A DNA stretch of 64,000 nt from Mesorhizobium onobrychidis (GTDB lineage Bacteria; Pseudomonadota; Alphaproteobacteria; Rhizobiales; Rhizobiaceae), in the NCBI RefSeq assembly GCF_024707545.1, contig NZ_CP062229.1, forward strand, positions 4,445,501 through 4,509,500, read 5' to 3'. The position numbers and the translations under genes were made by a program. This document shows, in pieces, positions 350 to 16,365 of the stretch (positions within the stretch are counted from its first letter, which is position 1; each line of letters begins with the position of its first letter). The notes beneath the pieces are model-generated. The model had not been told where the DNA came from, did no database searches, and worked only from the letters and a program-made list of their open reading frames with translations.

Positions 350-772
350 GTGCCGCATGAAGCCAAATTCGACGGCTACCGCTCGCAAATCATCATCGAG
401 GACGCTGGCGTTCGCATTTTCACCCGGAGAGGTCTTGATTGGACTGCCAAGTTACCGCGATCTGGCCGAGGCAGCCAAAGGTCTCAACGTACCGAACGGC
501 ATCATCGACGGCGAAGTCGTCGTCTTGAATGATGCCGGCCTGTCGGATTTCGCGGCTTTGCGCAAGGCCATCACCAGGCGCCAGCACGACCTCTATTTCG
601 TCGCGTTCGATCTGCTGCATCTCAACGGTCACGACTTGCGCGACACGGCGCTTGAGGATCGGCGGGAAATCCTGGCCGGCCTTATTGGATCTGACAGCCG
701 CATCCAGTTCAGTGAGACAATACCAGGCGAAGCTAACGCGATCTATCATCTGATCGACACGGCCGGCCTGGA
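350..772 (+). pseudogene. ligD: Remnant of ATP-dependent DNA ligase (LigD-type nucleotidyltransferase domain)
   Basis: Two overlapping frames encode consecutive pieces of the ATP-dependent ligase adenylation domain. The first contains HEAKFDGYR, motif I with the lysine that becomes adenylated, then GLDWTAK. The second continues with YRDLAEAAKGL, motif IIIa-like DGEVVVLND and YFVAFDLLHLNG. Continuity is restored if one T at 452 or 453 is removed, so the gene carries a single-base insertion. The N-terminus before motif I and everything after about TAGLE (residues for motifs IV and V, the OB fold, and any primase/nuclease domains) are missing. The fragment ends against the opposite-strand receiver gene. 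In rhizobia LigD works with Ku in non-homologous end joining; this copy cannot be functional. Confidence 0.85.
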
Positions 773-1165
773 GGCGGTGGGCGCCGGCCCCAGTGCCCTG
801 TTGACAGCGTCGATCAACAAGGCGGCCGGAAACGGCTTGTGAAGGTAGGCGATACAACCTGCCTTGGCGCCTTGCTGTTCGAGGGCTGCATCGTCAACGG
901 CAGTGATGAAAATAACCGGGAGACGGGACCCCGCATCTTTCAGCCGCTGCCGCAGTTCGATGCCCGACATACCCTCAAGATGGATATCGAGCACAAGGCA
1001 GCCGATCCGGCTCGTGGTGTCGCGGTGGAGAAAGGCTTCGGCCGACGAAAATCCCTGGGTCAGAAAACCATGTGCGTTCAGCAGCCGCTCAAGACTCGTT
1101 CGCATGCTGGAATCGTCTTCGACGACCGCCACCACCCTGCGCTGGTCGGCTTGCCGGGTCATCAC
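746..1165 (-). CDS. Single-domain response regulator (receiver protein, FixJ/NodW-like)
   Basis: About 139 residues make up one receiver domain. VVEDDSS gives the acidic Mg-binding pair, VLDIHLEG contains the likely phosphoacceptor Asp60, the conserved threonine is in ITA, and the lysine is in LHKPF. There is no DNA-binding output domain, unlike full-length FixJ-type regulators. It may act through protein contacts, as a phosphate sink, or be the N-terminal half of a truncated regulator. The start can be GTG 1165 or ATG 1162, with GGAAGG just upstream. No histidine kinase is adjacent. Its 3' end overlaps the end of the ligase remnant on the other strand, so the C-terminus may be a recombination junction. 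Confidence 0.8.
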   Translation of the reverse strand: MMTRQADQRRVVAVVEDDSSMRTSLERLLNAHGFLTQGFSSAEAFLHRDTTSRIGCLVLDIHLEGMSGIELRQRLKDAGSRLPVIFITAVDDAALEQQGAKAGCIAYLHKPFPAALLIDAVNRALGPAPTASRPAVSIR

Positions 1166-2355: not shown

Positions 2356-3357
2356 TTACGTCTTGAGGCGCTCAATCTTCCCGCGGAAGACCCAGTAGAC
2401 CCCGATCGTGTAGGCGACGATCACCGGCAGGACGACGATCCCGGCATAGAAGAAGAAGCGCAGCGAAACGTCCGGCGCGGCAGCGTCGGCCACCGTGACC
2501 GAATAGGGAATTAAATGGGGCCAGAACATTACGCCGAGCGTTAGAAATGCTGTGCAAAAGAACGCCATCGCCATCGTCAAAGGAACAGCATCCCGTCGCG
2601 TCCGTGCACCGGCAAGAAGGCCCAGAAGGGCAACAAGGCTGAACATCGGCAAGACCAGCCCCCAACTGCGCTGCCCAAGATTGCTCCTTGCAATGGCGCC
2701 TAAATCGGTCGTCAGCGCGATGATGAAGGCCACGCCCAGTACGGCAAACACCGCGGCGGCGAGCCACGGGATGCGCGCGTAGGCCCAGTCCCGCAGCCCG
2801 CCCTCCGTCTTCAAGACGATCCAGCAGGCGCCGAGCAGCGCATAGCCGAGCACAAGCCCGATTCCTGTGAGGACCGGGAAAGGGTGCAGCCAGGTGAAGG
2901 CGCCGCCGGCATATTGCATGTTCTCGACCGGAATGCCGCGGATCATTGCGCCAACCGCCGCCCCCTGGACAAAAGCGACCAGGATGGAACCGTAAGCAAA
3001 TCCGGCATCCCAAAACCGGCGCATACCCCCGCTGCGATAGCGGAACTCGAACGCAACGCCGCGGAAGATCAGGCCGACAAGCATCAGCAACACCGGCAGA
3101 TAGAAGGCCCCGAGGAAGACCGCATAGGCCGCCGGAAAGGCCGCGAAGAGACTTGCGCCGATTATCACCAGCCAGGTTTCGTTGCCGTCCCAGAACGGCG
3201 CGATGCTGGTCATCATCTCTCCGCGCTTGGCTTCGTCGCGGGTGGTGCCGAAAAGAATGCCGACGCCGATGTCAACGCCATCGAGGAGCACGTAGATCAG
3301 GATGGCGGCCGCGATGACCGCAGCCCAGAACAGGGCGAGCGTGCTCGGGTCAGTCAT
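2356..3357 (-). CDS. cydB: Cytochrome bd-type (cyanide-insensitive) quinol oxidase subunit II
   Basis: 333 residues starting MTDPSTLALFWAAVIAAAILIYVLLDGVDIGVG. The LDGxDxGVG signature in the first transmembrane helix and the GNETWLV motif are diagnostic of CydB/CioB. Hydrophobic segments along the whole length fit the expected eight membrane helices. Subunit II pairs with CydA to form a quinol-oxidising, oxygen-reducing terminal oxidase in the inner membrane. ATG 3357 lies 8 bp inside the end of cydA, so the two are translationally coupled; longer upstream starts were rejected because they overlap cydA extensively. CydX-like small subunits and CydCD transporters are not seen in the window. 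Confidence 0.95.
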   Translation of the reverse strand: MTDPSTLALFWAAVIAAAILIYVLLDGVDIGVGILFGTTRDEAKRGEMMTSIAPFWDGNETWLVIIGASLFAAFPAAYAVFLGAFYLPVLLMLVGLIFRGVAFEFRYRSGGMRRFWDAGFAYGSILVAFVQGAAVGAMIRGIPVENMQYAGGAFTWLHPFPVLTGIGLVLGYALLGACWIVLKTEGGLRDWAYARIPWLAAAVFAVLGVAFIIALTTDLGAIARSNLGQRSWGLVLPMFSLVALLGLLAGARTRRDAVPLTMAMAFFCTAFLTLGVMFWPHLIPYSVTVADAAAPDVSLRFFFYAGIVVLPVIVAYTIGVYWVFRGKIERLKT

Positions 3358-4768
3358 CGATGCCTCCGGCCCCTGTCTGGCTACCGGTCGCGGTGGCGGC
3401 CGTGTCGGCGAACGCCAGTGGCCGGCTGGCTGTCGCATTCGGGATCGCCTCGGCCGCCGTGACCGGCCCGTCGCGCAGCAGCTTGTAGATGTAAAAGGTG
3501 CCGAAGCCGCCAAAGACGGCATAGACCAGCACGTAAACAGTGAGCGAGAGGAGCACGTCGCCGGTGGTCAGCGATGGCGTCACCGCATCACTGGTTCGCA
3601 GGACGCCGTAGACGACCCAGGGCTGGCGGCCGACCTCGGCGGTATACCAGCCGCTCAGCACAGCGATGAACCCGGTCGGGAATGACAGGAATGTGCCCCA
3701 GAGGAACCAGCGGGTCGTCTCCAGCCGTCCGCGCCAGCGCAGGAGATTGCCGAACCAGGAGACGCCGAGCATGATCAGCCCCATGCCGACCATGACGCGG
3801 AAGCCGAAGAAGGGGATCACCACCGGCGGCCGATCGTCGACGGGAAAGGCATCCAACCCGGTCTCACGGGCAGTCCAGTTGCCCGAGGCGATGAAACTGC
3901 CGAGCCTGGGCACTTCAATCGCAAAGTAGTTGCGTTGGCTTGCCTCGTCGGGCCAGGCAATCAGCACCTCCGAGGCTGGTTGCTGGCTTTGCCAGCGGGC
4001 CTCGATCGCGGCGAACTTCGCCGGCTGGTGTTTTAGCACGTAAAGACCCGTGAGGTGGCCGAAGAACAACTGCACGGGGATCAGGACAGCCGCCAAGCCG
4101 AGCCCCCAGTGCAACATGACCTGTGCCGCCGGACGATGCTCTCTCCGCAGCATGTACCAGGCCCCTGCGGACGCGATGCTCATTGCGCTGGTCAGGAACG
4201 CAGCCAGCAACATGTGCGGCCAGCGCACCATCATCACCGGCCCGAGCACGATCTCGCGCCAGTCGGCGGGGATGATCCTGCCGTCGACGATCTCGTGGCC
4301 GACCGGCACCTGCATCCACGAATTGTTGGCGAGAATCCAGAACGAGGAGAGCATCGTTCCGAGCGACACCAGGCAGCAGGCAAAGAAGTAGAAGCCTGGG
4401 GGAACCCGGTCCCGGCCCAACAGCATGATACCGAAGAACGTCGCCTCGAGCATGAAGGCGGTGAAGGCTTCGTATCCCAGCAGCGGCCCCTGGATCGACC
4501 CGGTGCGCTCGGCGAGCACGCCCCAGTTGGTGCCAAACTGGAAGGCCATGACGATCCCCGTCACCACTCCCATGCCAAATGACACCGCAAAGACCTTCAG
4601 CCAGAAGTCGAAGATGCGCCGGTAGAGCGGATTGCCGGTGAAAAGCCGCATGCCCTCGATCGTCGCCAGCCACGCCGCCAGACCCATGGTGAAGGCCGGG
4701 AAGATGATGTGGAAGCTGATGACGAACGCGAACTGGATGCGCGACAGGATTACCGGGTCGAGTTCCAT
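3350..4768 (-). CDS. cydA: Cytochrome bd-type (cyanide-insensitive) quinol oxidase subunit I
   Basis: 472 residues, start ATG 4768 with a strong GAGGAGGA site. It has the CydA fold: RIQFAFVISFHIIFPAF with the axial-ligand His20, GTNWG, a second haem ligand in VRWPHMLLAAF, and GWYTAEVGRQPW. The periplasmic Q-loop is short compared with canonical E. coli CydA, as in the CioA/cyanide-insensitive branch. Subunit I binds the haems and oxidises quinol. The gene follows a PQQ-dependent dehydrogenase by 98 bp on the same strand and overlaps cydB. A plausible reading is that the operon couples periplasmic PQQ-dependent oxidation, through the quinone pool, to oxygen. That link is inference. No clear FNR/FixK box was found upstream. 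Confidence 0.95.
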   Translation of the reverse strand: MELDPVILSRIQFAFVISFHIIFPAFTMGLAAWLATIEGMRLFTGNPLYRRIFDFWLKVFAVSFGMGVVTGIVMAFQFGTNWGVLAERTGSIQGPLLGYEAFTAFMLEATFFGIMLLGRDRVPPGFYFFACCLVSLGTMLSSFWILANNSWMQVPVGHEIVDGRIIPADWREIVLGPVMMVRWPHMLLAAFLTSAMSIASAGAWYMLRREHRPAAQVMLHWGLGLAAVLIPVQLFFGHLTGLYVLKHQPAKFAAIEARWQSQQPASEVLIAWPDEASQRNYFAIEVPRLGSFIASGNWTARETGLDAFPVDDRPPVVIPFFGFRVMVGMGLIMLGVSWFGNLLRWRGRLETTRWFLWGTFLSFPTGFIAVLSGWYTAEVGRQPWVVYGVLRTSDAVTPSLTTGDVLLSLTVYVLVYAVFGGFGTFYIYKLLRDGPVTAAEAIPNATASRPLAFADTAATATGSQTGAGGIDD

Positions 4769-4866
4769 TGCATCTCCTCCTCGGCACCGTCAGGCGGATC
4801 GGGAGCCGCCTCACTCGGAGGCGCTGCCGACCCTGACTTGGATCTCCCTCAGTTCTTTTATGCAGG

Positions 4867-6681
4867 TCACGGGCTCGCCTCGGCGCCGTCAAGGCCCAGC
4901 ACGACGACCTTGGCCTTCACGACCTTCGTCGGCCACATCGGCGAGGTGAAGCCAGCCGCCACCGCGACCTTCTGCTTGTCGTCGGCGGTGTAGGTGATGA
5001 CGCCGCCGCCGATGCCGCCGCCGATATGCTCACCCCAGAGTTTCTCGCCGGTCGCTGCATTGAGCGCGTAGAAATTGCCGTCGACGTCACCGAAGAAAAC
5101 GACGCCGCCCGCCGTCGGGGTCATGCCGCTGAGGACAGGGTAGTTCAGCTTGGCCCGCCAAGCCCATTGGCCGGTATCGGCGTCGATGGCATAGACCCAG
5201 CCGTGCCAGTCCTCGTCGCCCTCAAGAGGGTGGCCGAAATCGTTGAACGGATTCAGCGCCGACATGCCTGACCAGGGAACCCCCATCGGCGCTGTCTCGA
5301 GCTTGTGCCTGTCCTCGAGCGTTACCGCATAGCACCAGTCGACCTCGCCAACCAGGACGAGATTGGTCGCCGGATCATAGGCTGGGCTGTTCCATTCCGC
5401 GCCGCCCACCGAGCCGGGGCAAAACCGCACCGACTTGCCCACCACGAAGGGAGCCTCGACGTTCTCAATCGTTGTCGCCGGCACCCTGTACAGTCGCTCG
5501 CCGGTAGCGCGGTCGATGCCGTAGACGTGACCGTCCTTGGGTGTGACCACGACCAGGTCCTTGCCGCCCTGTGTCCTGACAAGGATCGGCGGGTTCGACA
5601 CATCCCAGTCGTGCCAATCATCGGGGCTGATGTCGTAGTGGTCGCGGTAGTCGCCGGTCTTGGCGTCGAGGATGACCACCGAGCCGGAATAGAGGTTCGC
5701 AGCCTCTCCGGCGACGCCCTCGCGCACCCCGACGGCGAAGTCCGGCGCCGGGTTGCCGCCGGGGACATAGAGCGAGCCGGTCTCCGGGTCGAGGGTGGTC
5801 GACGTCCAGACCGCGCCGCCGCTGATCGGAATGCCGGGCTTCGTATTCCAGGTCGCTTCGGTGCGCGGCGATTTCCCGAGCGGGCCGCGGACCAGGTCGC
5901 CCTCCTGATAGGGCACGAGGTAGAACTCCCAGACGATCTTGCCGGTCTTGGCGTCGAGCCCGTACATGCGACCCTTCACGCCCTTGTAGTCGCCGCCGGC
6001 CTGGCCGACATACACCATGCCGTCCCAGGCGATCGGGGCGGCAGGCACTGTCTCGCCGATGCTCGGATCGGCGATCGTCGTCTGCCAAAGCCGCTTTCCG
6101 GTCTTGAAGTCATAGGCCAATACCTGTCCGTCCTGGGTGCCGCGAAACAGCATGCCGTCCCAGTAGGCGGCGCCACGGTTGACCCCCAAAATGCTCGGCG
6201 GAATGTCCTCGTGTGTGCGCCAGTTCTCGGCGCAGGTCGCCGGATCGAGCGAGAAGATGTCGAACTCCGTGGTGCCGATCAGCGCCCCGTCCACCATGAT
6301 CAGGCCGGTTTCGAAGACGGTGAGGACGCCGGTGTCGTAGGTGCAGAGGACCTTCATCTGCCCGACGTTCCCGGGGGTGATCTGCGTCAGCGGCGAGTAG
6401 CGGTCTGACGTCACGGTGCGGTTATAGCTCGGCCAGTCCGCGCCCGCCGCCGGCGCCTGTGGCGTTCCGTTCGAGCGCGGCGCCTTAGCCGTCGAACCGC
6501 CCTGATGCTCAGGATTCGCCTCCGTCGCCAGCGTGCCCTTCGGGGCGTCGAAGCTCCGGTAGAAGTTGAACGCCATTCCGCCATATTTGGCCATTTGAGC
6601 CGGGAACATCTTGTAGATGGCGGCCCCTGCCGCCACACCGAGCAGGGCTAAGACGACGACGGCAAGCAGAATTCTACGCAT
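4867..6681 (-). CDS. PQQ-dependent (quinoprotein) dehydrogenase, membrane anchored
   Basis: 604 residues with an N-terminal hydrophobic segment (about residues 4-24) that is a signal anchor or signal peptide, then a Pro/Ala-rich linker and a WD-like propeller of quinoprotein repeats (for example DWPSYNRTVTSDRYSPLTQI, WDGMLFRGTQDGQVLAYD, LDAKTGKIVWEF, GGVVFFGDVDGNFYALN). The DDWHDWD and EWNSPAYDP segments are typical of quinoprotein alcohol dehydrogenases. The adjacent-cysteine disulfide of methanol dehydrogenases is absent. There is no C-terminal cytochrome c domain, so electrons may pass to a separate acceptor or to quinone. A GGGAGGG ribosome site precedes ATG 6681. The substrate cannot be read from the sequence. 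No pqq biosynthesis genes are in the window. Confidence 0.85.
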   Translation of the reverse strand: MRRILLAVVVLALLGVAAGAAIYKMFPAQMAKYGGMAFNFYRSFDAPKGTLATEANPEHQGGSTAKAPRSNGTPQAPAAGADWPSYNRTVTSDRYSPLTQITPGNVGQMKVLCTYDTGVLTVFETGLIMVDGALIGTTEFDIFSLDPATCAENWRTHEDIPPSILGVNRGAAYWDGMLFRGTQDGQVLAYDFKTGKRLWQTTIADPSIGETVPAAPIAWDGMVYVGQAGGDYKGVKGRMYGLDAKTGKIVWEFYLVPYQEGDLVRGPLGKSPRTEATWNTKPGIPISGGAVWTSTTLDPETGSLYVPGGNPAPDFAVGVREGVAGEAANLYSGSVVILDAKTGDYRDHYDISPDDWHDWDVSNPPILVRTQGGKDLVVVTPKDGHVYGIDRATGERLYRVPATTIENVEAPFVVGKSVRFCPGSVGGAEWNSPAYDPATNLVLVGEVDWCYAVTLEDRHKLETAPMGVPWSGMSALNPFNDFGHPLEGDEDWHGWVYAIDADTGQWAWRAKLNYPVLSGMTPTAGGVVFFGDVDGNFYALNAATGEKLWGEHIGGGIGGGVITYTADDKQKVAVAAGFTSPMWPTKVVKAKVVVLGLDGAEASP

Positions 6682-6752
6682 AGCGTCCCTCCCAGGCTTT
6701 CAGGCGACCTCGCCCGTTGAGATCATCTCGGCCGATGCTAGCCGTTCGCGCG

Positions 6753-7802
6753 CTACTCAAAATCGAAGATGCGCTTCCAGTCCTTCTTCATGCTGATGAC
6801 GATCCAGCCGTCCTTCATTGCTTCGTCGTAGAGTTCCTGCGGGAATGCGCCCACCTTGGTGTCGGGCAGGCCCTGGGCCGGACCGTAGGCGTACTCGCGC
6901 TCGGCGTCGTCGTGGAGCAGCAGCATGGCGAGCCGCGCACCGTCTCCGGCCATGGTGTATTCCAGCATCTCCCGGTCGCCGGTCGAATTTCCGAACGCCG
7001 CAACCGGACGCCGCCCGATCATCAGATGGATGCCCTCTGGCTTGCCGGCATTGTTGTCGTTCAGCAGAAGCTTCGGCTCCTTGGTCAGGATCGGCTTGCC
7101 GTCTTCGCCATAGCTATACGTGGTACTTCCAGCCGTCCCCACGACTTGCTCCGGCGGGATGCCGTATGTTGCCTCGGAATAGACGCGAACGAAGTCCTGC
7201 CCGCCCCCGGTCACAATGTAGGTCTTGTAGCCGTTGGCACGCAGGTAGCGTAGGACTTCCTGCATCGGCTGGTAGGTCAGCTCGGTATAGGGACGCTTCC
7301 AGCGCGGATCCTTGGCGGCTGCGGTCCACTTCGCAGCCTCGGCGTTGAACTCATCAGTTGTCATCCCCGTGAGCGTGGCCGCGAGGAGCTTTTCGAGTTC
7401 GTGCATCGGCAGCTTGGCGATCGCCTCGCGGTCCCCTGTCAGCACGGTCTTGAACGGCTCGACATCCTTTAGTTCGGGCTTTGCCTTGACGAGGTCCGGC
7501 ACCCTGTCCAGGCAATAGATGACCTGGCTGTACATCGGGTGTTCGACCCAGAGCGTTCCGTCCTGGTCGAAGGTCGCGACCCGTTGTTCGGCCGGTACAA
7601 ACGTCGCGCCGCCTTCCTTGGTCGTCGCCTCTACGAACTCGACGATCGCCTTCTTCGCCACGCCGTCATTCCAGGAGGGCAACGGGTCATCCTGCGCTCG
7701 CGCGATCAGGCTGGTGCAAGCAACAGCAATTGGAACCAGAATGGCGGTTAGTGCCGCAAAGAATGTACGGCGGCTGATCACAGGATGTTGGAACCTATCC
7801 AT
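6753..7802 (-). CDS. Exported HAD-superfamily phosphatase (twin-arginine signal)
   Basis: 349 residues. The N-terminus has SRRTFFAAL followed by a hydrophobic stretch and ends near ARAQDD, fitting a Tat signal peptide. The mature domain carries HAD motifs: FDQDGTLW (nucleophile Asp79 and Asp81), IVTGGG for motif II, a lysine near KPEG for motif III, and FGNSTGDREML for motif IV. This arrangement resembles phosphoserine-phosphatase-like exported HAD proteins. It probably hydrolyses a phosphate ester in the periplasm; the substrate is unknown. AGGAGG lies upstream of ATG 7802. It is 71 bp upstream of the PQQ dehydrogenase on the same strand and is likely cotranscribed with it. Confidence 0.85.
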   Translation of the reverse strand: MDRFQHPVISRRTFFAALTAILVPIAVACTSLIARAQDDPLPSWNDGVAKKAIVEFVEATTKEGGATFVPAEQRVATFDQDGTLWVEHPMYSQVIYCLDRVPDLVKAKPELKDVEPFKTVLTGDREAIAKLPMHELEKLLAATLTGMTTDEFNAEAAKWTAAAKDPRWKRPYTELTYQPMQEVLRYLRANGYKTYIVTGGGQDFVRVYSEATYGIPPEQVVGTAGSTTYSYGEDGKPILTKEPKLLLNDNNAGKPEGIHLMIGRRPVAAFGNSTGDREMLEYTMAGDGARLAMLLLHDDAEREYAYGPAQGLPDTKVGAFPQELYDEAMKDGWIVISMKKDWKRIFDFE

Positions 7803-7885
7803 TTTGCCATCTCCTCCTGGATGTGAGCCAAGGCAGGCGCCTGAATCACCAGGCTCCTGGCTTCATCGGGTTCGGTCCGCCGTTC

Positions 7886-8362
7886 TCAGGGAGCGGCCCT
7901 CAACGTCATAGTGGTGACCCCGCCCGCGATGTTGATGCCCGTCTGGCCCTCGACAGAGATAGGCTGCAAGGAGAAGGCACGGCCGCTGCCGCCGACGAGA
8001 ACGTTGGCGCCTGCGCCGAGGCCAATCGACGCGTTTGCGCCCACTCCCGAATAGGTCCCGGCCAGGGCCCCCGCCGGAACACCGCTGCTGGCAGCAATCA
8101 CGCCCCAGATCAGATGACCCTCCGCAACCTCGCCGAGCGCCACGCCGAACTGATCGATTGACCCGGTGTAGTTTTCGACCTTTCCGCCCCGGTCTTGGAA
8201 GACGCACGAAAGTGTCTGCTTTTCGACCACGAACATTCCGATGCCGGCAGACACGTCACACGACAGCCTGCCGGCTTGCGTTGAGTCCTGAGAATTGGCT
8301 TCGAGAGGGACCAGTGCGACGATCAGTGCAAGACATGCGCTGCGGAGGTGGGCCATTGTCAT
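7886..8362 (-). CDS. Secreted DUF992 protein
   Basis: 158 residues with a signal peptide (cleavage near ANSQ) and the DUF992 pattern: RLSCDVSAGIGMFVVEKQTLSCVF, then GKVENYTGSIDQFGVALG, a Gly/Ala-rich middle and a final strand. Two cysteines in the first part probably form a disulfide. DUF992 proteins are small, abundant, exported proteins of Rhizobiales without an assigned function. The start is either ATG 8362 or ATG 8356; AAGGGAG fits the second better. It stands between the Gly/His-rich exported protein and the HAD phosphatase on the same strand, with an 83-bp gap to the latter. Confidence 0.8.
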   Translation of the reverse strand: MTMAHLRSACLALIVALVPLEANSQDSTQAGRLSCDVSAGIGMFVVEKQTLSCVFQDRGGKVENYTGSIDQFGVALGEVAEGHLIWGVIAASSGVPAGALAGTYSGVGANASIGLGAGANVLVGGSGRAFSLQPISVEGQTGINIAGGVTTMTLRAAP

Positions 8363-8514
8363 TTCTCCCTTCAGGTCGTGAACTCATAAATCTGATCGAA
8401 AATCTAAATGGTGTGAGGTCATCTGCTGGGTACGCATGGTCCCGAACCGAAGCCAGCGAAGCAACAAGTTGCAGACCTTTCGGGCAAGACCATGCGAGGT
8501 TCCCTTTGTTCTTC

Positions 8515-9291
8515 CTAGTAACACGGCGGATAGGGATAATACCCGCACTGGTCCCCATAGTAGGGGTAGCCGTAGCGGTAGGGAGCGGTCGCCGCGGCTC
8601 CAATGGCAGCGCCAGCCACCGCGCCCGCTGCAAGGCCTGCGCCGCCATACCAGGCCCCATGATAGACCGGAGCATGCCAGTAACTGCCGCCATGCCACCC
8701 GCCGCCATGCCATCCACCGACATGGGCGAAGGTGGCATCACCGACATGCGCATAACCGCCGTGGAAGCCACCGCCGCCAAAACCTCCGCCGAAGCGATCG
8801 ATGAAAAGCGCAGCCGGCCCAACAGCACCATCCAGATTTCCTTCGAGGACAGCGACGTCGAAGGTGAGCGTTGTTCCTTCGAGCTTCGGGGTTTTCAGGG
8901 TGACGACCGCATCGCTTACATCCGACCCGTCGCCGCCAAGCACCGAGACAGTCGCGTTCGGCGGATCGATGGCGAAGTTGTCCTTGCCTTCATCCCACTG
9001 CATGATGAATTGCTCTGTCATGACATGCCCCGCGGCCCGGATCGGGCGGTCGGCGAATACAATCGAGTTCTTGGATACGCCTGTCATGATCAATTTGCCG
9101 CCCTCCAGCTTGGCGCCCTCCGAGTTGAGGACGGCGAGCGATGGCACCGGGCCGGTCGGGGTAACCTCGCCGATGGTCTTTTCGAGCGGCACATGCGGCT
9201 TCTTGGCGGCGTCCTGGGCCATGGCTCCGGTTGTTGCCAGCGCCAGACCTCCAGCAAAAGCCACAAGGCTTGTGATGCGGGTCCTGTTCAT
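8515..9291 (-). CDS. Exported protein with Gly/His/Tyr-rich C-terminus
   Basis: 258 residues. A signal peptide ends at AMAQ. Residues about 30-155 form a compact domain (LNSEGAKLEGGKLIMTGV, MQWDEGKDNFAIDPPNATVSV) of unrecognised fold, predicted beta-rich. The last 90 residues are Gly, His, Tyr and Trp rich (GGFGGGGFHGG, GGWHGGGWHGG, then an Ala/Gly stretch and PYYGDQCGYYPYPP). Such tails may bind metal or sit in the envelope; this is inference. AAGGA lies 8 nt before ATG 9291. It is part of the run of exported proteins downstream of the sulfatase. Codons for the tail are G/C-rich, so length changes between relatives are likely. Confidence 0.75.
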   Translation of the reverse strand: MNRTRITSLVAFAGGLALATTGAMAQDAAKKPHVPLEKTIGEVTPTGPVPSLAVLNSEGAKLEGGKLIMTGVSKNSIVFADRPIRAAGHVMTEQFIMQWDEGKDNFAIDPPNATVSVLGGDGSDVSDAVVTLKTPKLEGTTLTFDVAVLEGNLDGAVGPAALFIDRFGGGFGGGGFHGGYAHVGDATFAHVGGWHGGGWHGGSYWHAPVYHGAWYGGAGLAAGAVAGAAIGAAATAPYRYGYPYYGDQCGYYPYPPCY

Positions 9292-9406
9292 TGCAGTTGT
9301 CCTTCGCGTTTGAGTTCGCCGGTACTGTCCTTGCGGTTTTCACCCTGATCGAAACCCGAAACCATGGTTCTACTTCTCTGGAAAAATCTGTTTCCAGTTT
9401 GCATAG

Positions 9407-9651
9407 CTAATTGCTCGACGGCGGGTTCCTGAGCTTCTCCATGGCCTGCTCCACCGAGAACGAGCCGGGCGCCTGACGGGGCGGAAACTCCTGGAAGCTC
9501 GCCAGATGCTGCGCGACAACTGACTGCGCCGGGACGAGGACGAAAGCGTGTTCGATGAACCATCGCACATAGTCGCCGGCCTCATGCTGGATGCGAGGCC
9601 GATGGCGACGGTTATCGCGGCTGCAAAACCAAATGCTATCGGTTTTTTCAT
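9407..9651 (-). pseudogene. Arylsulfatase remnant (signal peptide plus C-terminal tail, frameshifted)
   Basis: ATG 9651 starts a good signal peptide (MKKPIAFGFAAAITVAIGLAS). Within the next 30 nt the protein-like signal moves to another frame that encodes GDYVRWFIEHAFVLVPAQ, a LASFQEFPPRQAPGSFS segment and an end at TAG 9409-9407. That C-terminus has the same layout as the tail of the intact sulfatase upstream (GQQLWLKHLETYIAFPPLQ, PASYNLEQVM). The catalytic domain is missing. The best reading is a second sulfatase gene that lost its central roughly 450 codons by an internal deletion that also shifted the frame. It marks a former tandem duplication of sulfatase genes. Confidence 0.75.
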
Positions 9652-9733
9652 CTCGCTTCCTCGAGGTCGATGGCTTTGTCAACGCGTGAGCCGAGGGCCA
9701 GTTTGTATAGCGCGCAGCCAGGCTGACGCGCGA

Positions 9734-9762
9734 CCGGACGCCCCTCGAAGTGGGGCGTCCGG
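9734..9762 (-). terminator. Strong hairpin after the arylsulfatase
   Basis: A perfect 11-bp stem, CCGGACGCCCC pairing with GGGGCGTCCGG around a 7-nt loop, begins 10 nt beyond the sulfatase stop. There is no U-tract, so it could be a transcript-stabilising 3' hairpin rather than an intrinsic terminator. Confidence 0.55.
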
Positions 9763-9771
9763 CATGGCGGG

Positions 9772-11481
9772 TCAGTCGTGACCTGTCTTCATGCTCCGGA
9801 CTTGCGCCATCACTTGCTCCAGATTGTAGCTTGCAGGGTCCTGGAGCGGCGGGAAGGCGATGTAGGTCTCGAGATGCTTCAGCCACAACTGCTGGCCGAT
9901 GGGCAGGATGTTCCAGTCATAGACGTAGGCGGTGGACGGTGACGCGATGGAGCCGCCCATACCGGTGATTGTCTTGATCTGCTGTCCGACCGAAGTTTCG
10001 AACGGATCGCGCTTGATGTTGACGACCTGGGTCCAGGCAAAGGGCATTACACCGGCAATGAAGCCAGCCGGATCGTCTGATACCATCGCGAAATACATCT
10101 TCCAGTTCTTGTAGCGGACCGCCGACGGCTCCTTGCCGGAATAGTACAGGAAAGAGTCGCGCGCGGATGGCGACTTGCCTTCCAGGAAGTCGCGCTGATC
10201 GATGCCGTCGAGAGTGGTCTTGACGACATTCGGATATTTGCCCGTTTCGATCTCCTTCTTCAATCCGTCACCCTTCGGGCCGCCGGCGATGTTCACGAGC
10301 GTCGGCACCCAGTCGAGCGACGAGAAGATGTCGTTCTTGACCGTGCCGGGCTCGATGTGCCCAGGCCAGCGCACGACCAGCGGGGCACGCATGCCGCCTT
10401 CCCAAGTGCTGAGCTTGCCGCCCTTGAACGGGGTGGTGCCGCCATCCGGGAAGGTGATCGTCTCTGCTCCGTTGTCGGTGGTGAAGACGACGATGGTGTT
10501 GTCGAGCTGGCCCATGTCTTCCAGCTTCTTGAGGACGACGCCGATGTTGTCGTCCATCTGCTTCATGCCGGCTTCGTTCATGCCCCAGTCCTTGCCGCCG
10601 GGCTCGCCGATCATATTCAGATATTTGTCAGGCAACACCGTCGTGATGTGCATGCGCGCCGGGTTGTACCAGACGAAGAACGGCTTGTTGGTCTGCTTGG
10701 GGTCGTTACGGTCGAGGAAGTCGACGACCTTGGCAGAGATTTCCTCGTCAATGGTCTTTGACCGCTCCAGCGTCAGCGGACCCTCGTCCTTGCAGGATTG
10801 ATTTGCCGGGGATCCGTCGGAGGATGTGCACGCGAGCATTGGACGCGGTGGCGTCAGGCAGGTCGTTGTCTTGGGATCGACCGCGCCCGGAACCTCAGCC
10901 AGGCCTGGGATCGGTGTATTCATGCAAGGTGGCGCGATCCCCTGCTCAGTCGGGCTCTTGTTGATGTCGGGGAAGCTCACCCCCTGCATGGCGTCGAGGT
11001 GATAGAGGTAGCCCCAAAATTCCTGGAACCCGTGTGCGGTCGGCAGGGATTCGGTGGTATCTCCGAGATGGTTCTTGCCGAACTCGCCTGTCGAGTAGCC
11101 GAGATCATTCAGGAACCTGGCGAGGTGAGGCGTGCCGGCCCGCAGGTAGGACGGGCTTCCGGGAATTTCCGGCAGGACCATGCCGACGCGCACCGGCTGC
11201 ATGCCGGTGATAAAGGCGGTCCGCCCAGCAGTGCAGCTCTGCTCGGCATAGTAGGTCATGAATTTCGCACCTTCCTGGCCGATGCGATCGATGTTGGGCG
11301 TTTCGCCGACCATCAGGCCCTGATGATAGATGCTGGGCTGCATCCAGCCGATATCATCACCCATGATGAACAGGATGTTGGGCTTTTGCGCATCCTGGGC
11401 CTGTGCCGGCGCATGCGCGCCCCAAAGGACCGTCGCAGCGGTCAGTATCCCAATGCTGCAGTCAAGGATTCTACGACTCAT
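9772..11481 (-). CDS. Periplasmic arylsulfatase (sulfatase family, FGly-type)
   Basis: 569 residues from ATG 11481, chosen because AGAGGAGAGGG lies just upstream; a longer in-frame start lacks a site. A signal peptide ends near AQAQ. PNILFIMGDDIGW supplies the metal-binding aspartates (42, 43). The activation motif is CTAGR (Cys83, Arg87), matching the C-x-A/P-x-R rule for conversion to formylglycine. FGKNHLGD, NTIVVFTTDNGAE and FKGGKLSTWEGGMRAP are the remaining conserved sulfatase blocks. It hydrolyses sulfate esters, aryl or other, after export. A formylglycine-generating enzyme is not in the window and must be encoded elsewhere. It heads the exported-protein block and is divergent from the TolB/TPR regulator-like gene. 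Confidence 0.92.
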   Translation of the reverse strand: MSRRILDCSIGILTAATVLWGAHAPAQAQDAQKPNILFIMGDDIGWMQPSIYHQGLMVGETPNIDRIGQEGAKFMTYYAEQSCTAGRTAFITGMQPVRVGMVLPEIPGSPSYLRAGTPHLARFLNDLGYSTGEFGKNHLGDTTESLPTAHGFQEFWGYLYHLDAMQGVSFPDINKSPTEQGIAPPCMNTPIPGLAEVPGAVDPKTTTCLTPPRPMLACTSSDGSPANQSCKDEGPLTLERSKTIDEEISAKVVDFLDRNDPKQTNKPFFVWYNPARMHITTVLPDKYLNMIGEPGGKDWGMNEAGMKQMDDNIGVVLKKLEDMGQLDNTIVVFTTDNGAETITFPDGGTTPFKGGKLSTWEGGMRAPLVVRWPGHIEPGTVKNDIFSSLDWVPTLVNIAGGPKGDGLKKEIETGKYPNVVKTTLDGIDQRDFLEGKSPSARDSFLYYSGKEPSAVRYKNWKMYFAMVSDDPAGFIAGVMPFAWTQVVNIKRDPFETSVGQQIKTITGMGGSIASPSTAYVYDWNILPIGQQLWLKHLETYIAFPPLQDPASYNLEQVMAQVRSMKTGHD

Positions 11482-12190
11482 TTCCCTCTCCTCTGGTTGC
11501 TTACGGATAGATGCCTCGCCACCGCCCACGGCACGATTTCGAGCCTGAGCGACCTCCCGTCACCAGTCGGGGCGCTCAAGCTGACGCCACGGTAGCCCCT
11601 AGCTAACGCATGGTGATATTGTCCTTTGGGGAAGTTGTTCAGGTGCAGATGCGGTAACGCTGCCCGATCTACTTTCCCAGCTAAGAACTTGGCCTACGAG
11701 GGGACATCCGTCATGCTGCGCGACCCGGTTGGAGAAGCGCGCGATTGCCAGGCACCACGTGCCTATCAAGGATCAAATCGACGCGCCGGCATTGCGCTCG
11801 TATGGATTGCCGCCAATCTGCTGTTGATGTGCTGGCCGGCTGCGGCAGCCGCAGAGAACGAAGTCGGTCGCGCTCTGGAAATCTGGTCACGACGGCGGCG
11901 ATCCCTGGCCACATACTTGCTCCGCCCTGTTAGCGAGGTCGTTGCACCGGGGTATCATTGCTCTGAAGTCTGCAGGGCGGAAGGTGCGCACGGGTGCGCA
12001 CATGTGCGCACCCCATCTTTGGGGGCGGGCACGACAGGCTGACCCGCCAGCGGGACAGCACCAGGGACGTCACACAAGTGTCATCGATGTAGGCTAGCCA
12101 AATCCGTGCGCTTCCTTTGCTTCGTGCGATCAGCTATCTTCCACCGCTCGTAGTTTCGCTGGAAAAGGGTCGGCTTGGGGAGGGGTGTTT
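11482..12190. other. 709-bp divergent intergenic region with degenerate coding traces
   Basis: This separates the sulfatase (minus) from the TolB/TPR gene (plus). It contains the three-palindrome array at 11984-12011. From ATG 11713 on the plus strand a frame gives a signal-peptide-like stretch (IALVWIAANLLLMCWPAAAA) followed by Arg-rich sequence without family resemblance, most likely a decayed exported-protein gene. The promoters for both flanking genes should lie here, but no confident -35/-10 pair was identified. Confidence 0.5.
11984..12011. promoter_or_regulatory. Three GTGCGCAC palindromes at 10-bp spacing
   Basis: The perfect 8-bp palindrome GTGCGCAC occurs at 11984-11991, 11994-12001 and 12004-12011, separated by 2 bp each, so identical faces recur once per helical turn. 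The array ends 180 bp before the TolB/TPR gene and about 500 bp from the sulfatase start. It looks like a cooperative operator. The binding protein is unknown; the N-terminal domain of the adjacent TolB/TPR protein is one candidate. Confidence 0.5.
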
Positions 12191-14020
12191 ATGACACCAG
12201 CATCCGACGCCTCGGGTCGCGGGCCGGTATCACCCGGTCCACCGCCGGCCGACATCCGCTTACAGTTGGAACGTATCCTTGACAGTGCGACTCTTCAGGC
12301 GAGCCCGCGGCGGCGGGCCTTCCTCCGGTACCTGGTGGAAGAGACGCTCGCGGGACATGCCGACAGGCTGAAGGGCTATTCGCTCGAGCGTGCGGTCTTT
12401 GGCCACGACGGGACGTTCGGCTCGCAGTCCGAGTCGGTTGTCCGCTTCGAAGCCCGACGCCTGCGGCGCGACCTTGACAGCTACTACGTCGATGCCGGCG
12501 CGCGGGATCCCGTTCGTATCACCATTCCGAAAGGCCAGTACGTTCCACATTTCAAATGGCACCAGGCGCCGACAGAGGCACCGCCGTCGGATAACACCGA
12601 ACCCGACCCCAGAGGTGGGACGGTAGTCGGGGCAATTGGCGCAGCGCCGGCCGCCGACGAGGCGGGCGGTGCCGGCATAGCCGGGCGCCGCCGGGGCGTC
12701 TTGGCCGGCCTGCTCGCCGTCGTGGTCCTCGCTGCGGCCGGCGGGCTGTGGCTGTGGCTCCGCAGCCCATCGCCGTCGGGTGCTGAGCCAGTTCGCGGTC
12801 CGGCCGTTGTCGTCCTGCCCTTCGAGACGCTCAGCGCCGGGGAGGACGACCGCTTCCTTGCTGCCGGCGTGACCCAGGAGCTCATCACCGCCCTGATGCG
12901 GTTCGAGGGGTTCAGGCTCTATTCCGTGCCGGCGAGTTTCGGCCAGGACGCGCGGGCCGACCCGGTAACGCTCGGTCGTAACCTCGGGGTCGGCTACGTC
13001 GTCAAGGGCAGCGTCAGTTCCGACGCGGCGACCGTGCGGGTGGCGGCGCAGTTCTACGACGCGCAGACGGGCCGTGTGATATGGAGCGAAACCTACGACC
13101 GGGCGCGGACAGCGGGCGCTCTGCTCGGCGTCCGGGCGGAGCTCGCCGCCAGCATCGCGGCGGTGCTGGGTCAGCCCTACGGCGTCGTCAACAGCGACAT
13201 GGCGGCCCGCCTGTCGGGCGGCGTCGAGCCTAACATGGCCAGCTACACCTGCGTGCTGAAGGCCTACACGTACCGCCGCACCTTCCGGGACGAGCTTCGC
13301 CAGCCGGTCCTGGCATGCCTCGAGGCTGCGGTCGAGCGCGACCCGGACTATGCCGAGCCCTGGGCTCTGCTCGGCTGGCTGCACCTCGATGCCGCCCGCT
13401 TCGGCTTCGTGCCCGAAGCCGAGGTCCCGCGCGAACTGAGCCAGGCGCTCGACTTTGCCTCCAGGGCGGTCGCGATCGGCCCCGAGAACGTGGTCGCGCT
13501 GCGGGCGCTTTCGGCAGTCCAGTACCACCTCGGCAACTTCAACGAGTCGGAGCGCATCCAGCGGCAGGCGCTGGCGCTCAACCCGAACGATCCCGATACG
13601 CTGGCGCAGCTTGGCTGGCGGCTGGCCGTTCGCGGCCGCTGGGACGAGGGTCTTGCCTATAGCGAGCGCGCGATCGAGCGGACCATCGACCCACTTGGCT
13701 GGTACTACGATATGACCACGATCCACCTCTATCTCGAGGGTCGCTATCGCGAAATGCTCGCCTCGGCCGAGCATTCGGCGGCTGGGGACCCCACCGGGGT
13801 GTCGCTCCTTGCCATCGCCCACGGCGCCCTCGGAAACCACGCCGCGGCGCAGGAGGCGCTGGCCACGCTGGCTAAGCAGGCGCCGGCGTTCAACCGCGAT
13901 CCCGCCGCCGTCTTCCGCCGCTTCCAATTTCTCGAAAGCATCAGCGACGCCTACATGGATGGCCTGCGTAAGGCCGGCTGGACTGAACCCAGCGTTTCGA
14001 CCGTGCCCCACGGAAAATGA
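12191..14020 (+). CDS. Membrane-spanning TolB-like / TPR protein with N-terminal regulator-type domain
   Basis: 609 residues from ATG 12191 (GGAGGGG 5 nt upstream). Residues about 22-115 (LERILDSATLQASPRRRAFLRYLVEETLAG, LKGYSLERAVFG, VVRFEARRLRRDLDSYY, IPKGQYVPHF) form the domain that precedes TolB/TPR modules in proteins often annotated as adenylate-cyclase-like or CadC-like. One transmembrane helix follows (about 168-190). Next is a FlgO/TolB N-terminal-like domain (VVVLPFETLSAGEDDRFLAAGVTQELITAL, GYVVKGSVSSD), and then several TPR repeats (EPWALLGWLHLDAARFG, NDPDTLAQLGWRLAVRGRWDEG). No cyclase catalytic domain is present. It may sense envelope conditions and regulate the divergent sulfatase block; that is inference from position. 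Confidence 0.8.
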   Translation: MTPASDASGRGPVSPGPPPADIRLQLERILDSATLQASPRRRAFLRYLVEETLAGHADRLKGYSLERAVFGHDGTFGSQSESVVRFEARRLRRDLDSYYVDAGARDPVRITIPKGQYVPHFKWHQAPTEAPPSDNTEPDPRGGTVVGAIGAAPAADEAGGAGIAGRRRGVLAGLLAVVVLAAAGGLWLWLRSPSPSGAEPVRGPAVVVLPFETLSAGEDDRFLAAGVTQELITALMRFEGFRLYSVPASFGQDARADPVTLGRNLGVGYVVKGSVSSDAATVRVAAQFYDAQTGRVIWSETYDRARTAGALLGVRAELAASIAAVLGQPYGVVNSDMAARLSGGVEPNMASYTCVLKAYTYRRTFRDELRQPVLACLEAAVERDPDYAEPWALLGWLHLDAARFGFVPEAEVPRELSQALDFASRAVAIGPENVVALRALSAVQYHLGNFNESERIQRQALALNPNDPDTLAQLGWRLAVRGRWDEGLAYSERAIERTIDPLGWYYDMTTIHLYLEGRYREMLASAEHSAAGDPTGVSLLAIAHGALGNHAAAQEALATLAKQAPAFNRDPAAVFRRFQFLESISDAYMDGLRKAGWTEPSVSTVPHGK

Positions 14021-14334
14021 CCGCAGCGGCGCAGTCGCGCCCGCATGGAACCCGCCAGTCATTAGACGCATCGGGGCGGACCGAGTCGATGGCGGCCGAT
14101 ACCTGTGTGGCTTAGTAACCGTCTCGTGATGCCGCCGCCACGAACATATCGATTTTGCGAAGGTGATGACCAGACGGTTCGCGGTCTTCCAGATCAAAAC
14201 AGCAAAGTTCGCCTTGCGCCAAGTCGACCGCGCTGCTGCAAAATTGCTGCAAAGTGCATTGGAAAAGATGGTGAGAGGCGCGTCGGGAACCTTTACCAAA
14301 CGCCAGAAAATATAGTCGCGTCAATGAGTTGCTC
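14021..14334. other. 314-bp stretch without a supported gene
   Basis: Between the TolB/TPR gene and the tRNA cluster nothing protein-like was found on either strand. It includes a short near-repeat, GCTGCAAAATTGCTGCAAA (about 14232-14250). It is the likely inner flank of an integration boundary at the tRNA genes. Confidence 0.4.
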
Positions 14335-14417
14335 TGGTGCCCCCGGACGGGATCGAACCGCCGACCTTCGGTTTACAAATTCGGTGCCCCAAACAAGGGT
14401 TAACTCATATCGGGGGC
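14335..14417 (-). tRNA. Degenerate tRNA-like sequence, resembling tRNA-Thr(UGU)
   Basis: On the minus strand a perfect 7-bp acceptor stem (GCCCCCG with CGGGGGC), discriminator A, an encoded CCA and a good T arm (GGCGG, TTCGATC, CCGTC) are present. The segment GCACC.GAATTTGTAA resembles the anticodon arm of tRNA-Thr(UGU). The D arm is not recognisable, the anticodon stem does not pair, and the total length of 83 nt is about 7 too long. It is probably a decayed or rearranged tRNA; activity is doubtful. Confidence 0.5.
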
Positions 14418-14475
14418 AACGACCGCATACCGCCGTGAGGGAACTAGCAAGGGCTGTGCGATGGCACAGAAGAAT

Positions 14476-14565
14476 TGGCGGAAGGGGCGGGATTCGAACC
14501 CGCGGAAGACTTGCGCCTTCGATGGTTTTCAAGACCATTGCCTTAAACCGCTCGGCCACCCTTCC
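14476..14565 (-). tRNA. tRNA-Ser (anticodon UGA)
   Basis: A complete 90-nt class II tRNA including encoded CCA. The acceptor GGAAGGG pairs with CCCTTCC. The D arm has TGGCCGAGCGG, the anticodon loop CTTGAAA carries TGA, there is a long variable arm as expected for serine, and the T loop is TTCGAAT. It decodes UCN serine codons. It lies beside a second, truncated serine tRNA on the same strand. Confidence 0.95.
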
Positions 14566-14670
14566 ACTGTTATCTGCGCCAGCGCTTGCCGAACGGGCGC
14601 AGATTTGGGGCAGATTTCGTCCTCCTTTTCAGCGATGACCCTTGTGTTACAAGGCATTGTTCGCCATCAG

Positions 14671-14717
14671 ACACCGGTTTTCAAGACCGGTGCCTTAAAC
14701 CGCTCGGCCATCCCTCC
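14671..14717 (-). pseudogene. Truncated tRNA-Ser(UGA), 5' half only
   Basis: Starting at 14717 the minus strand reads GGAGGGATGGCCGAGCGG, the 5' acceptor strand and D arm of a serine tRNA. A perfect anticodon arm CACCGGTCTTGAAAACCGGTG with anticodon TGA follows. The sequence then departs from tRNA; variable arm, T arm and 3' acceptor strand are missing. It differs from the intact neighbour in acceptor and anticodon stems, so it is a separate gene cut in half, as expected at a recombination or integration site. Confidence 0.8.
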
Positions 14718-15135
14718 ATCGTGATTTTTCAACCACTTGGATGCTCGTCCTGATCTCGACTCATACCTGTTGGCACTGCTGCGCCGCCTGGAGATCGCGT
14801 TCGCGCTTCATTGCTCTAGTGCGCCCGACGAAGTCCTGTCAACCGGCCGTTGCCTGTTCCTGCCAACGGCTGGGCATGGGCGCTTTGACGGCGGGGCTGA
14901 AGCAGGACGAACAGCGCAGCGCCGAAGCTCGAAAAGCCGTGAGTTTTTACCGCGACCACCGGGACGGTTTGCGCCACAATCTCGCCCGGTTCCGACCATA
15001 TTCGGTTAATACGGTGATAAACAATTCCTGTGCACAAGGGATTGCGAATCAAGGTGGCGCTGCCATTGTCGAGTAGGTTTTTGGCCTGCCGACGGTCAAG
15101 TTGCGGCGCCTTTGTTGAGAGGGGACAATCGAAAA
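14718..15135. other. 418-bp stretch without a supported gene
   Basis: No coding frame on either strand has family features, and no clear RNA or repeat was found. It should contain the promoter of rlpA, which starts at 15136. It forms the outer side of the tRNA boundary, where conserved chromosomal genes begin. Confidence 0.4.
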
Positions 15136-16365
15136 ATGCAAAGCACGGCGCGCCCGCGTCTTCGTCGCGCTTCCGCTTTCGCGTTGTTTGCCATGTCGGC
15201 TGCCTTGCTGGCGGCTTGCGCCGCGCCGCCACAGCCGAAGGCGATGGTCAACAAGAAACCTCGCTCCAAGGAATATTTTTCCGAATCCGAATACGGCGTG
15301 AAGGCCAGCCCGCGCGTCACCTTCAAGATGTCGGGCCTGCAGCGTGGCGGCGGACGCGACCAGCTCGGCAAGCCCTATCAAGTGCGCGGCAAGTGGTATT
15401 ATCCGAAGGAAGACAAACGCTACGCCAAGATGGGTCTCGCTTCCTGGTATGGCGAAGCCTTCCACGGCAGGCTGACCGCCAACGGCGAAGTCTACGACAT
15501 GACACATCTGACCGGCGCGCATCCGACAATGCCGCTGCCGAGCTATGCACGCGTCACCAATCTGAAGACCGGCAGCTCGGTCATCGTGCGCGTCAACGAT
15601 CGCGGTCCTTACCATGACGGGCGCATCATCGATGTGTCGAAGCGCGCCGCCGAAATGCTCGACTATGCCAATATCGGCACGGCCAAGGTGAAGGTCGAAT
15701 ATGTCGGCCGGGCGCCGCTTGACGGCAATGACGATCGGTACCTGATGGCCTCCTATAATCCAGGCAACAGGGTGCCGGATCCGTCGGACGGCTTACCCAC
15801 CGGTGTCATGATCGCCATGAATGGACCATCGCCGAGTACGGCGTTGGCCGCCGCCGCTCCATTTCCCGGCCAGTTGACGAATTCCGCATCGGCACAGCCT
15901 GTCATTGCGGCGCAGGCGCCGGCCTCCGGGAATGTGACGCTGCCCGATTTCGGGCCGATCGTGCCGGAACGCCCGCAGATCAATCTGCCGGCGCAATCGC
16001 CGTTCAGCGTAGCGTCGCTGTCTTACGCGGACGAACGCGTGCAGCGCGCCTCCAATGTCTTTGCCGCGCTGGATGGCGCCGGCATGTCGCCTGCCGAAAT
16101 CCTTCGATCGTGGAAGCGGCAAGCTCCTCCGGCCGCTTCGCCCACGGACTTTATCGCGGCTGGCTCGTTCGAGGATGCCGCCGAGGCGCAGCGTGTGGCA
16201 GCCCGGCTTTCCAGCTTCGGCAAGACCGAAATCCAGCGCTCCGAATTCGAGGGCAAGGACTGGCATTCGGTCAACCTCTATCCGGACGGCCATGGCAGCC
16301 TGGACGAGATGCTGCAGGCGGCATGGTCGCATGGCGCACCGGACGCGCTCGTGGTTCGGAACTGA
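15136..16365 (+). CDS. rlpA: RlpA-like septal lipoprotein / lytic transglycosylase with SPOR domain
   Basis: 409 residues from ATG 15136. The signal peptide ends in LLAAC, a lipobox, so the protein is a lipoprotein. Residues about 90-190 are the double-psi beta-barrel: GLASWYGEAFHGRLTANGEVYDM, TAAHP-like THLTGAHPTMPLPSYARVTN, and VRVNDRGPYHDGRIIDVSKRAAEML; the DRGP and RIIDVS blocks are hallmarks. A Pro/Ala-rich linker follows. The last 75 residues (DFIAAGSFEDAAEAQRVAARLSSFG) are a SPOR-type peptidoglycan-binding domain. RlpA cleaves or binds denuded glycan at division septa. It is followed by a carboxypeptidase-family gene, a common pairing for cell-wall remodelling. A GGCAAAAC hairpin follows the stop. 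Confidence 0.92.
   Translation: MQSTARPRLRRASAFALFAMSAALLAACAAPPQPKAMVNKKPRSKEYFSESEYGVKASPRVTFKMSGLQRGGGRDQLGKPYQVRGKWYYPKEDKRYAKMGLASWYGEAFHGRLTANGEVYDMTHLTGAHPTMPLPSYARVTNLKTGSSVIVRVNDRGPYHDGRIIDVSKRAAEMLDYANIGTAKVKVEYVGRAPLDGNDDRYLMASYNPGNRVPDPSDGLPTGVMIAMNGPSPSTALAAAAPFPGQLTNSASAQPVIAAQAPASGNVTLPDFGPIVPERPQINLPAQSPFSVASLSYADERVQRASNVFAALDGAGMSPAEILRSWKRQAPPAASPTDFIAAGSFEDAAEAQRVAARLSSFGKTEIQRSEFEGKDWHSVNLYPDGHGSLDEMLQAAWSHGAPDALVVRN

Follow-up and report, generated by a model that had tools for sequence, protein, structure and literature searches.

A sulfatase gene module beside PQQ-type dehydrogenase and cytochrome bd oxidase genes in Mesorhizobium onobrychidis

In acetic acid bacteria, membrane dehydrogenases dependent on pyrroloquinoline quinone (PQQ), ubiquinone, and a bo3-type or cyanide-insensitive quinol oxidase (CIO) form an established type of respiration. 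For strain NGR234, parts of a published study describe the induction, in Leucaena bacteroids, of pqq genes and of a gene close to them for a periplasmic alcohol dehydrogenase, and the expression of cytochrome bd genes as differing between hosts (PMC3732241). These data provide a physiological setting and no link to the locus described here, which lies at positions 2356 to 11481 of a window of 64,000 nucleotides (contig NZ_CP062229.1, positions 4,445,501 to 4,509,500) in the genome of Mesorhizobium onobrychidis (GCF_024707545.1). The block contains genes for a sulfatase, a sulfatase remnant, a Gly/His-rich exported protein, a DUF992 protein, a HAD-superfamily phosphatase-like protein, a PQQ-type dehydrogenase, and CydA and CydB. 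All eight are on the minus strand, and the open reading frames and Pfam matches agree with the list given in an initial annotation of this DNA.

The block is probably, though not securely, composed of two modules lying side by side: an eroded sulfatase module (module 1) and an acquired cassette that would lead electrons from a substrate to quinone and on to O2 (module 2). Module 1 would consist of the sulfatase, Gly/His-rich and DUF992 genes with the remnants, its source cluster being apparently regulated by a two-component system. Module 2 would consist of a second HAD gene, the PQQ-type dehydrogenase gene, cydA and cydB. Features of the block are listed below in coordinates of the 64-kb window, which is part of the larger, 7.32-Mb contig of a genome of 7.55 Mb in two contigs; loci used for comparison carry L numbers and other genomes G numbers.

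9772..11481, minus strand: type I sulfatase, 569 aa, Sec-like signal (PF00884, E 4.5e-43)
9710..11727, minus strand: duplicated 2-kb segment, sulfatase gene and upstream region (96.1% DNA identity over 2,025 columns to L020, 6347-8361)
11689..11727, plus strand: remnant, first codons of a divergent histidine kinase gene (tblastn with the L020 kinase, residues 1-13, 77%, E 5e-4)
9407..9590, minus strand: remnant of a second sulfatase gene, C-terminal part (tblastn E 4e-7; 84.8% DNA identity to L094)
9379..9402, minus strand: remnant, 3' end of a HAD gene (C-terminal residues, 7 of 8 matching, E 0.01)
8515..9291, minus strand: Gly/His-rich exported protein, 258 aa (no family model found)
7886..8362, minus strand: DUF992 exported protein (PF06186, E 9e-45)
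6753..7802, minus strand: HAD-superfamily phosphatase-like protein, Tat-like signal SRRTFF (PF12710, E 1.4e-9; PDB 4ovy, E 6e-88)
4867..6681, minus strand: membrane-anchored PQQ-type dehydrogenase, no haem motif (PF01011, E 1.3e-59)
3350..4768, minus strand: cydA, bd-type quinol oxidase subunit I, short Q-loop (PF01654, E 7.6e-147)
2356..3357, minus strand: cydB, subunit II (PF02322, E 4e-85; TIGR00203, 156 bits against a cut-off of 117)

Intact neighbours from the Gly/His-rich gene through cydA are separated by gaps of 71-152 bp, and cydA and cydB overlap by 8 nt, given a cydB start at 3357; the N-terminal extension of the listed open reading frame (2356-3522) beyond this start is most likely spurious. 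A scan of promoter- and terminator-like sites gave 0 of the former (1.9 in shuffled sequences) and 8 of the latter (7.2 in shuffled sequences). Nearly all products of the block had been described as exported. This holds for the non-oxidase products, in which export signals were recognised by eye, but not for CydA and CydB, which are integral membrane proteins.

The sulfatase module and related rhizobial clusters

A fuller copy of the sulfatase cluster is present 1.24 Mb from the window on the same chromosome (L020, C1:5,686-5,706 kb). One strand of L020 carries genes for three further exported-looking proteins, of which two are presumably DUF3300 and DUF2950 proteins, two response regulators and a histidine kinase. 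The facing strand carries, in this order, genes for a sulfatase, a second sulfatase, a HAD protein, a Gly/His-rich protein, a beta-barrel protein (a weak match, under the Pfam cut-off) and a TPR protein. The latter (13128-15449) includes eight CxxCH motifs, and its counterpart in a Rhizobium leguminosarum plasmid (L111, 10817-13105) is annotated as cytochrome c3 family; this multihaem TPR protein belongs to the rhizobial sulfatase cluster.

The window sulfatase shares 98.8% amino acid identity with the first sulfatase of L020, and the 96.1% DNA identity extends through the upstream region to the first codons of the kinase gene, with the source stretch at C1:5.692-5.694 Mb. The sulfatase remnant named in the initial annotation proved to be real: 39 residues match the C-terminus of a sulfatase (36%, E 4e-7), and the DNA at 9407-9590 aligns with 84.8% identity to the last part of the second sulfatase gene in L094, a locus of a congener (genome G020). 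At the adjoining HAD-gene remnant, DNA homology to a second locus of this congener (L091) runs into the L091 HAD gene. In L091 the end of a sulfatase gene is followed by genes for a sulfatase, a HAD protein, a Gly/His-rich protein and a DUF992 protein, and the ancestral order was probably sulfatase, sulfatase, HAD, Gly/His-rich protein, DUF992. The window copy includes no full kinase gene and lacks the second sulfatase gene, one HAD gene and the multihaem cytochrome c gene. Judged from these alignments, the window sulfatase, Gly/His-rich and DUF992 genes are a duplicated and eroded copy of the rhizobial cluster.

The association of sulfatase, HAD and Gly/His-rich genes recurs and exceeds chance. 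That sulfatase and HAD genes travel together, as had been proposed, is borne out by a same-strand sulfatase gene adjoining, within a 4-kb locus, seven of the eight full-length HAD relatives detected outside the window in 61 genomes; the sole HAD relative lacking such a neighbour is that of G059 (L010). Genes for a kinase, regulator, sulfatase, HAD protein and Gly/His-rich protein are found within 20 kb in L094, L060 (G220) and L064 (G204), and likewise in L091 with a partial kinase gene. In L060 the sulfatase genes lie apart on the opposite strand, and one is a fragment. Three of the 63 plasmid records with a Gly/His-rich match were read. The cluster is present in L111 and in an R. jaguaris plasmid (L112), the latter with only the end of the HAD gene in place and a full HAD gene 7 kb on. 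Sinorhizobium meliloti pSymA (L113, CP130046) carries a broken form, in which only pieces of the sulfatase, cytochrome and MscS-like genes match and a kinase match was not found. The cluster copies that were read (L020, L060, L064, L091, L094 and L111-L113) include neither the dehydrogenase gene nor cydAB.

Matches to the Gly/His-rich protein occur in 54 of 397 genomes of the order, at 88 places in all. The 36 best places in other genomes were covered by 34 loci (L057-L090), and the stretch read includes a sulfatase match in eight of these loci and a HAD match in four; hence, the Gly/His-rich protein is distributed more broadly than the cluster. The protein has no Pfam, NCBIfam or PHROG match but at least 2,357 relatives at E <= 1e-10, the nearest named ones being from Mesorhizobium, and own-genome copies are 84% and 76% identical. 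Its family is conserved and exported, with a Gly/His-rich tail and a CGYYPYPPCY-like end. A first predicted model had a pLDDT of 44, and a model of the core (pLDDT 75) gave no match in the PDB at E <= 0.001.

The window sulfatase is a member of the type I family (PF00884, 148 bits against 25) and matches the structure PDB 7aj0 with E 4e-49. Its active-site motif C83-T-A-G-R corresponds to CxAxR and not to the CxPxR form. CTAGR in place of CxPxR is also found in the L020 sulfatase that neighbours the counterpart of the window sulfatase. The only match to PF03781 (formylglycine-generating enzyme) in the own genome is partial, covering profile positions 110-255 of 255 in a 194-aa frame at C1:2658406-2658825 (L123); other maturation enzymes were not searched for. 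The exported sulfatase and HAD protein of the cluster probably free sulfate and phosphate from external esters.

The dehydrogenase and quinol oxidase genes

In L091, a flanking segment is located 1.4 kb after the DUF992 gene, while its counterpart in the window is located 6.3 kb after the DUF992 gene. The second HAD gene, the dehydrogenase gene and cydAB take up 5.4 kb, which is roughly the difference in spacing. The cassette looks inserted because the collinear congener locus L091 lacks the second HAD, dehydrogenase and cydAB genes, and from this comparison the set looks like an acquired cassette that may have arrived in one piece and may be cotranscribed. Two features beyond the block are comparable with L091:

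1337..1614, no strand assigned: flanking segment collinear with the congener locus, at the distal border of the presumed insertion (78.9% to L091, 13332-13614)
746..1165, minus strand: short FixJ-like response regulator, related to that of other cluster copies (64% to L020; 83% in DNA to L091)

A fragment resembling an ATP-dependent DNA ligase gene was recognised by eye at 357-842. A genomic island at tRNA-Ser (14476-14565) was considered and rejected, as the terminal 16 or more bases of the tRNA recur exactly neither elsewhere in the window nor in the 10.5 kb to its left. Foreign composition was rejected as well, the GC content of the cassette genes (0.61-0.66) being near the window mean of 0.62.

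The genome searches for dehydrogenase relatives scored three or four candidates per genome, so that relatives can be missed, and the order and phylum samples overlap. Within this scope, no relative of more than 37% identity was found among 396 other genomes of the order, of which three have matches of 35-37% identity at E <= 1e-60. In the phylum sample, 397 other genomes gave no match at E <= 1e-100. Around the genomes of two distant relatives, 5 of 294 and 12 of 286 genomes, starting genomes included, match at E <= 1e-100. Viral contigs gave no match to the dehydrogenase peptide patterns. The family comprises at least 2,831 proteins at E <= 1e-100.

The dehydrogenase matches PF01011 (202.9 bits against 26.7) and has a single N-terminal hydrophobic anchor, recognised by eye, and no CxxCH motif. 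The second Asp that characterises XoxF-like, lanthanide-type enzymes is present in the segment D358-W-D360, with D in 120 and 118 of 121 sequences, respectively, and the metal-site Asp, Asn and Asp-x-Asp are near-invariant in the same set. Genes pqqB, pqqC and pqqE were found in the own genome, and on two plasmids and in G361 pqq genes occur in the vicinity of more distant relatives of the dehydrogenase. The anchored dehydrogenase would oxidise an alcohol- or sugar-like substrate in the periplasm, and its electrons would pass via ubiquinone to the bd-type oxidase and O2. A cytochrome is a possible acceptor. The HAD protein encoded upstream has the motif FDQDGT at 78 expected of a HAD phosphatase and matches PF12710 (39.1 bits against 27), scoring under the cut-off of TIGR01488.

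Both subunits of a bd-type quinol oxidase are encoded, with GRQPW and the His, Met and Glu segments of CydA intact; the latter are presumably haem ligands. CydA is about 65 residues shorter than E. coli CydA and AppC between the aligned pieces. The short Q-loop is as in CIO, but it is common to other short-loop bd oxidases and so is not specific to CIO. A CydA match at E <= 1e-50 is present in 121 of 146 genomes of the genus. The common CydA type of the genus is only about 43-46% identical to the window CydA, and the nearest match, own copies aside, is 60% identical. Twelve related cydAB regions of the genus were read among the better matches, not counting G024, G013 and second places, and none of the 12 includes a dehydrogenase, sulfatase, HAD or Gly/His-rich gene. 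The own genome further includes a degenerate cydA end with a cydB of the window type near a phage-type integrase gene (L024, C1:3816000-3832000).

The protein searches covered the best 120 of larger sets, with one longest contig per cluster; the window dehydrogenase itself was not among them, and near relatives may hide inside clusters. The listed relatives of the dehydrogenase (119 of 120) and of CydA (120) have five contig sizes in common: 5,309, 9,571, 42,243, 810,471 and 3,769,689 bp, the last being that of Pseudomonas pohangensis. The frequency of near misses predicts about 0.17 coincidences for sizes of at least 5 kb and 0.88 for all sizes. If the contigs, matched by size alone, are the same, the 5,309-, 9,571- and 42,243-bp pairs imply close linkage of the dehydrogenase and CydA genes. 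A tree of 129 sequences places the window dehydrogenase in a clade of 17 (support 0.99) together with three of the five size-sharing proteins, the other two falling outside. No contig size is common to the listed dehydrogenase and Gly/His-rich relatives, which is weak evidence as near relatives may hide inside clusters.

An exact-peptide-pattern scan for the dehydrogenase, which detects close relatives only, gave six loci. The nearest, from a Glaciimonas metagenome-assembled genome (L014), encodes a dehydrogenase of 65% identity. On the strand of this gene, after 172 bp, come genes resembling those for CyoA, CyoB and CyoC (cytochrome o subunit III), then genes for a CDF transporter and a CyoD-like protein. 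The evidence for an association of dehydrogenase and cydAB beyond chance is moderate and for the most part indirect.

Alternative explanations

Several findings, set out here with the explanations that they touch, weigh against an assembly from two modules. The initial annotation had proposed one periplasmic pathway, encoded in one operon, in which desulfation and dephosphorylation are followed by PQQ-dependent oxidation with electrons passing to the adjacent oxidase. The single strand, the short gaps and the export signals are consistent with this proposal, as is the presence of an electron-transfer gene, that of the multihaem cytochrome c, in the cluster elsewhere. In L018, sulfatase and histidine kinase genes lie divergent beside the dehydrogenase gene, and L075 (G245:C30:29500-49499) carries HAD, Gly/His-rich and 32%-identical PQQ-propeller genes within 20 kb, though no sulfatase match. 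A CydA (85%) and a Gly/His-rich protein (88%) of a Mesorhizobium sp. are recorded with the same contig size, 58,613 bp, and a single contig of this size may carry both halves of the block. The second HAD gene is a putative member of module 2. Nevertheless, the cluster copies read elsewhere lack the dehydrogenase gene and cydAB, the 12 cydAB regions lack the dehydrogenase, sulfatase, HAD and Gly/His-rich genes, no second genome read combines the sulfatase module with the dehydrogenase and cydAB, and the cassette has the look of an insertion. Other genomes seem to carry each half, whereas the whole set is represented by one example among the loci read, and the proposal of a single pathway is not sustained; we regard it as quite unlikely.

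It is unlikely, too, that cydAB is a spare oxidase copy in accidental adjacency and that the dehydrogenase uses another acceptor, such as cytochrome c. This explanation would account for the second, degenerate cydA with a cydB of window type in the own genome and for the other neighbours of the cydAB relatives in 12 genomes of the genus. Many dehydrogenase relatives are named 'alcohol dehydrogenase (cytochrome c)' in the source database, and in L017 a gene for a two-domain cytochrome c lies 1.2 kb downstream of the dehydrogenase gene. Oxidase neighbours were sought with the window CydA and CydB and the Glaciimonas cyo proteins (E <= 1e-5) in 28 dehydrogenase-family loci outside the window, i.e. 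26 genome loci and two plasmids, several stretches of which stop at contig ends. A bd or bo3 quinol oxidase match was present in L014 only, which is one of the three loci with at least 60% identity. The four Glaciimonas CyoA-D-like proteins score under the NCBIfam cut-offs, though over the Pfam ones, and the contigs of equal size were matched by size alone, with an 810-kb contig or a whole genome implying no adjacency. Against accidental adjacency stand the five common contig sizes, compared with 0.17 expected, and the cyo-like neighbours in Glaciimonas. The coupling of dehydrogenase and quinol oxidase suggested in the initial annotation is favoured by these two findings and disfavoured by the 27 of 28 loci that lack an oxidase; because only L014 among the 28 has one, the link, if real, is confined to the nearest relatives.

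The beta-propeller protein could instead be an 'empty quinoprotein' that binds no PQQ, in which case the cassette would not be a substrate-oxidising chain. It matches the acido-empty-quinoprotein model TIGR04528 at 231 bits, though under the cut-off of 650, and also falls short of the PQQ-dependent methanol/ethanol dehydrogenase model TIGR03075 (326.8 bits against 480.05). The vicinal Cys pair is absent, with PPSILGVNRG at 161-170 where 1yiq and 4mae have CC, and the most frequent residues at these alignment positions across 121 sequences do not include Cys. Lys replaces the PQQ-contacting Arg of 4mae and 1yiq. The near-invariance of the metal-ligand and catalytic Asp positions, the pqq genes in the genome, and the proximity of pqq genes to distant relatives in G361 and on two plasmids argue against this explanation, and an empty protein appears very unlikely.

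Beyond the composition from two modules, which remains the preferred one, it may be speculated, with considerable doubt, that an XoxF-like dehydrogenase with its own quinol oxidase (bd here, bo3 in Glaciimonas) is a transferable cassette grafted into a sulfatase/phosphatase regulon that elsewhere includes a multihaem cytochrome c, so that desulfated and dephosphorylated products would be oxidised on the spot.

Comparison with described systems

No description of this gene set was recognised in the open-access literature, and none of the rhizobial sulfatase cluster was found. In novelty the locus is modest, offering a variant of known quinoprotein/quinol-oxidase respiration in which the genes are linked, together with a rhizobial sulfatase cluster that is undescribed so far as found. 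If the dehydrogenase and an exchangeable quinol oxidase are one unit, a complete periplasmic oxidation chain could be acquired in one step. Quinone, and not cytochrome c, would then be a likely acceptor for part of a family of at least 2,831 proteins (E <= 1e-100), for which no characterised member was found. In rhizobia, the sulfatase/HAD/Gly-His cluster, which recurs and has a two-component system of its own, is an unknown open to experimental test.

The rhizobial kinase/arylsulfatase/HAD/cytochrome c3 cluster (e.g. R. leguminosarum plasmid NZ_CP030764) has the sulfatase, HAD and Gly/His-rich proteins in common with the window. In its full form it includes a divergent kinase gene and response regulators, whereas the window carries the second HAD gene, the dehydrogenase gene and cydAB instead. 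Short-Q-loop cytochrome bd oxidases, CIO included, share the CydA and CydB families, GRQPW and the short Q-loop with the window oxidase, no direct comparison with CioAB having been made. The beta-propeller of the dehydrogenase aligns over about 500 residues with XoxF-type methanol dehydrogenase (PDB 4mae) and quinohaemoprotein alcohol dehydrogenase (PDB 1yiq). Like XoxF, the window protein retains the catalytic Asp with a further Asp at the second position after it, and also the Asn ligand; it differs from both structures in the lack of the vicinal Cys pair, in Asp for the Glu ligand and in Lys for Arg.

The respiration of acetic acid bacteria is alike in that periplasmic oxidation by a quinoprotein leads to a terminal quinol oxidase, of either bo3 or CIO type, and both types are found beside this dehydrogenase. 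The present locus differs in that the dehydrogenase and oxidase genes are adjacent and in that the dehydrogenase has no haem motif and a single N-terminal anchor, as judged by eye.

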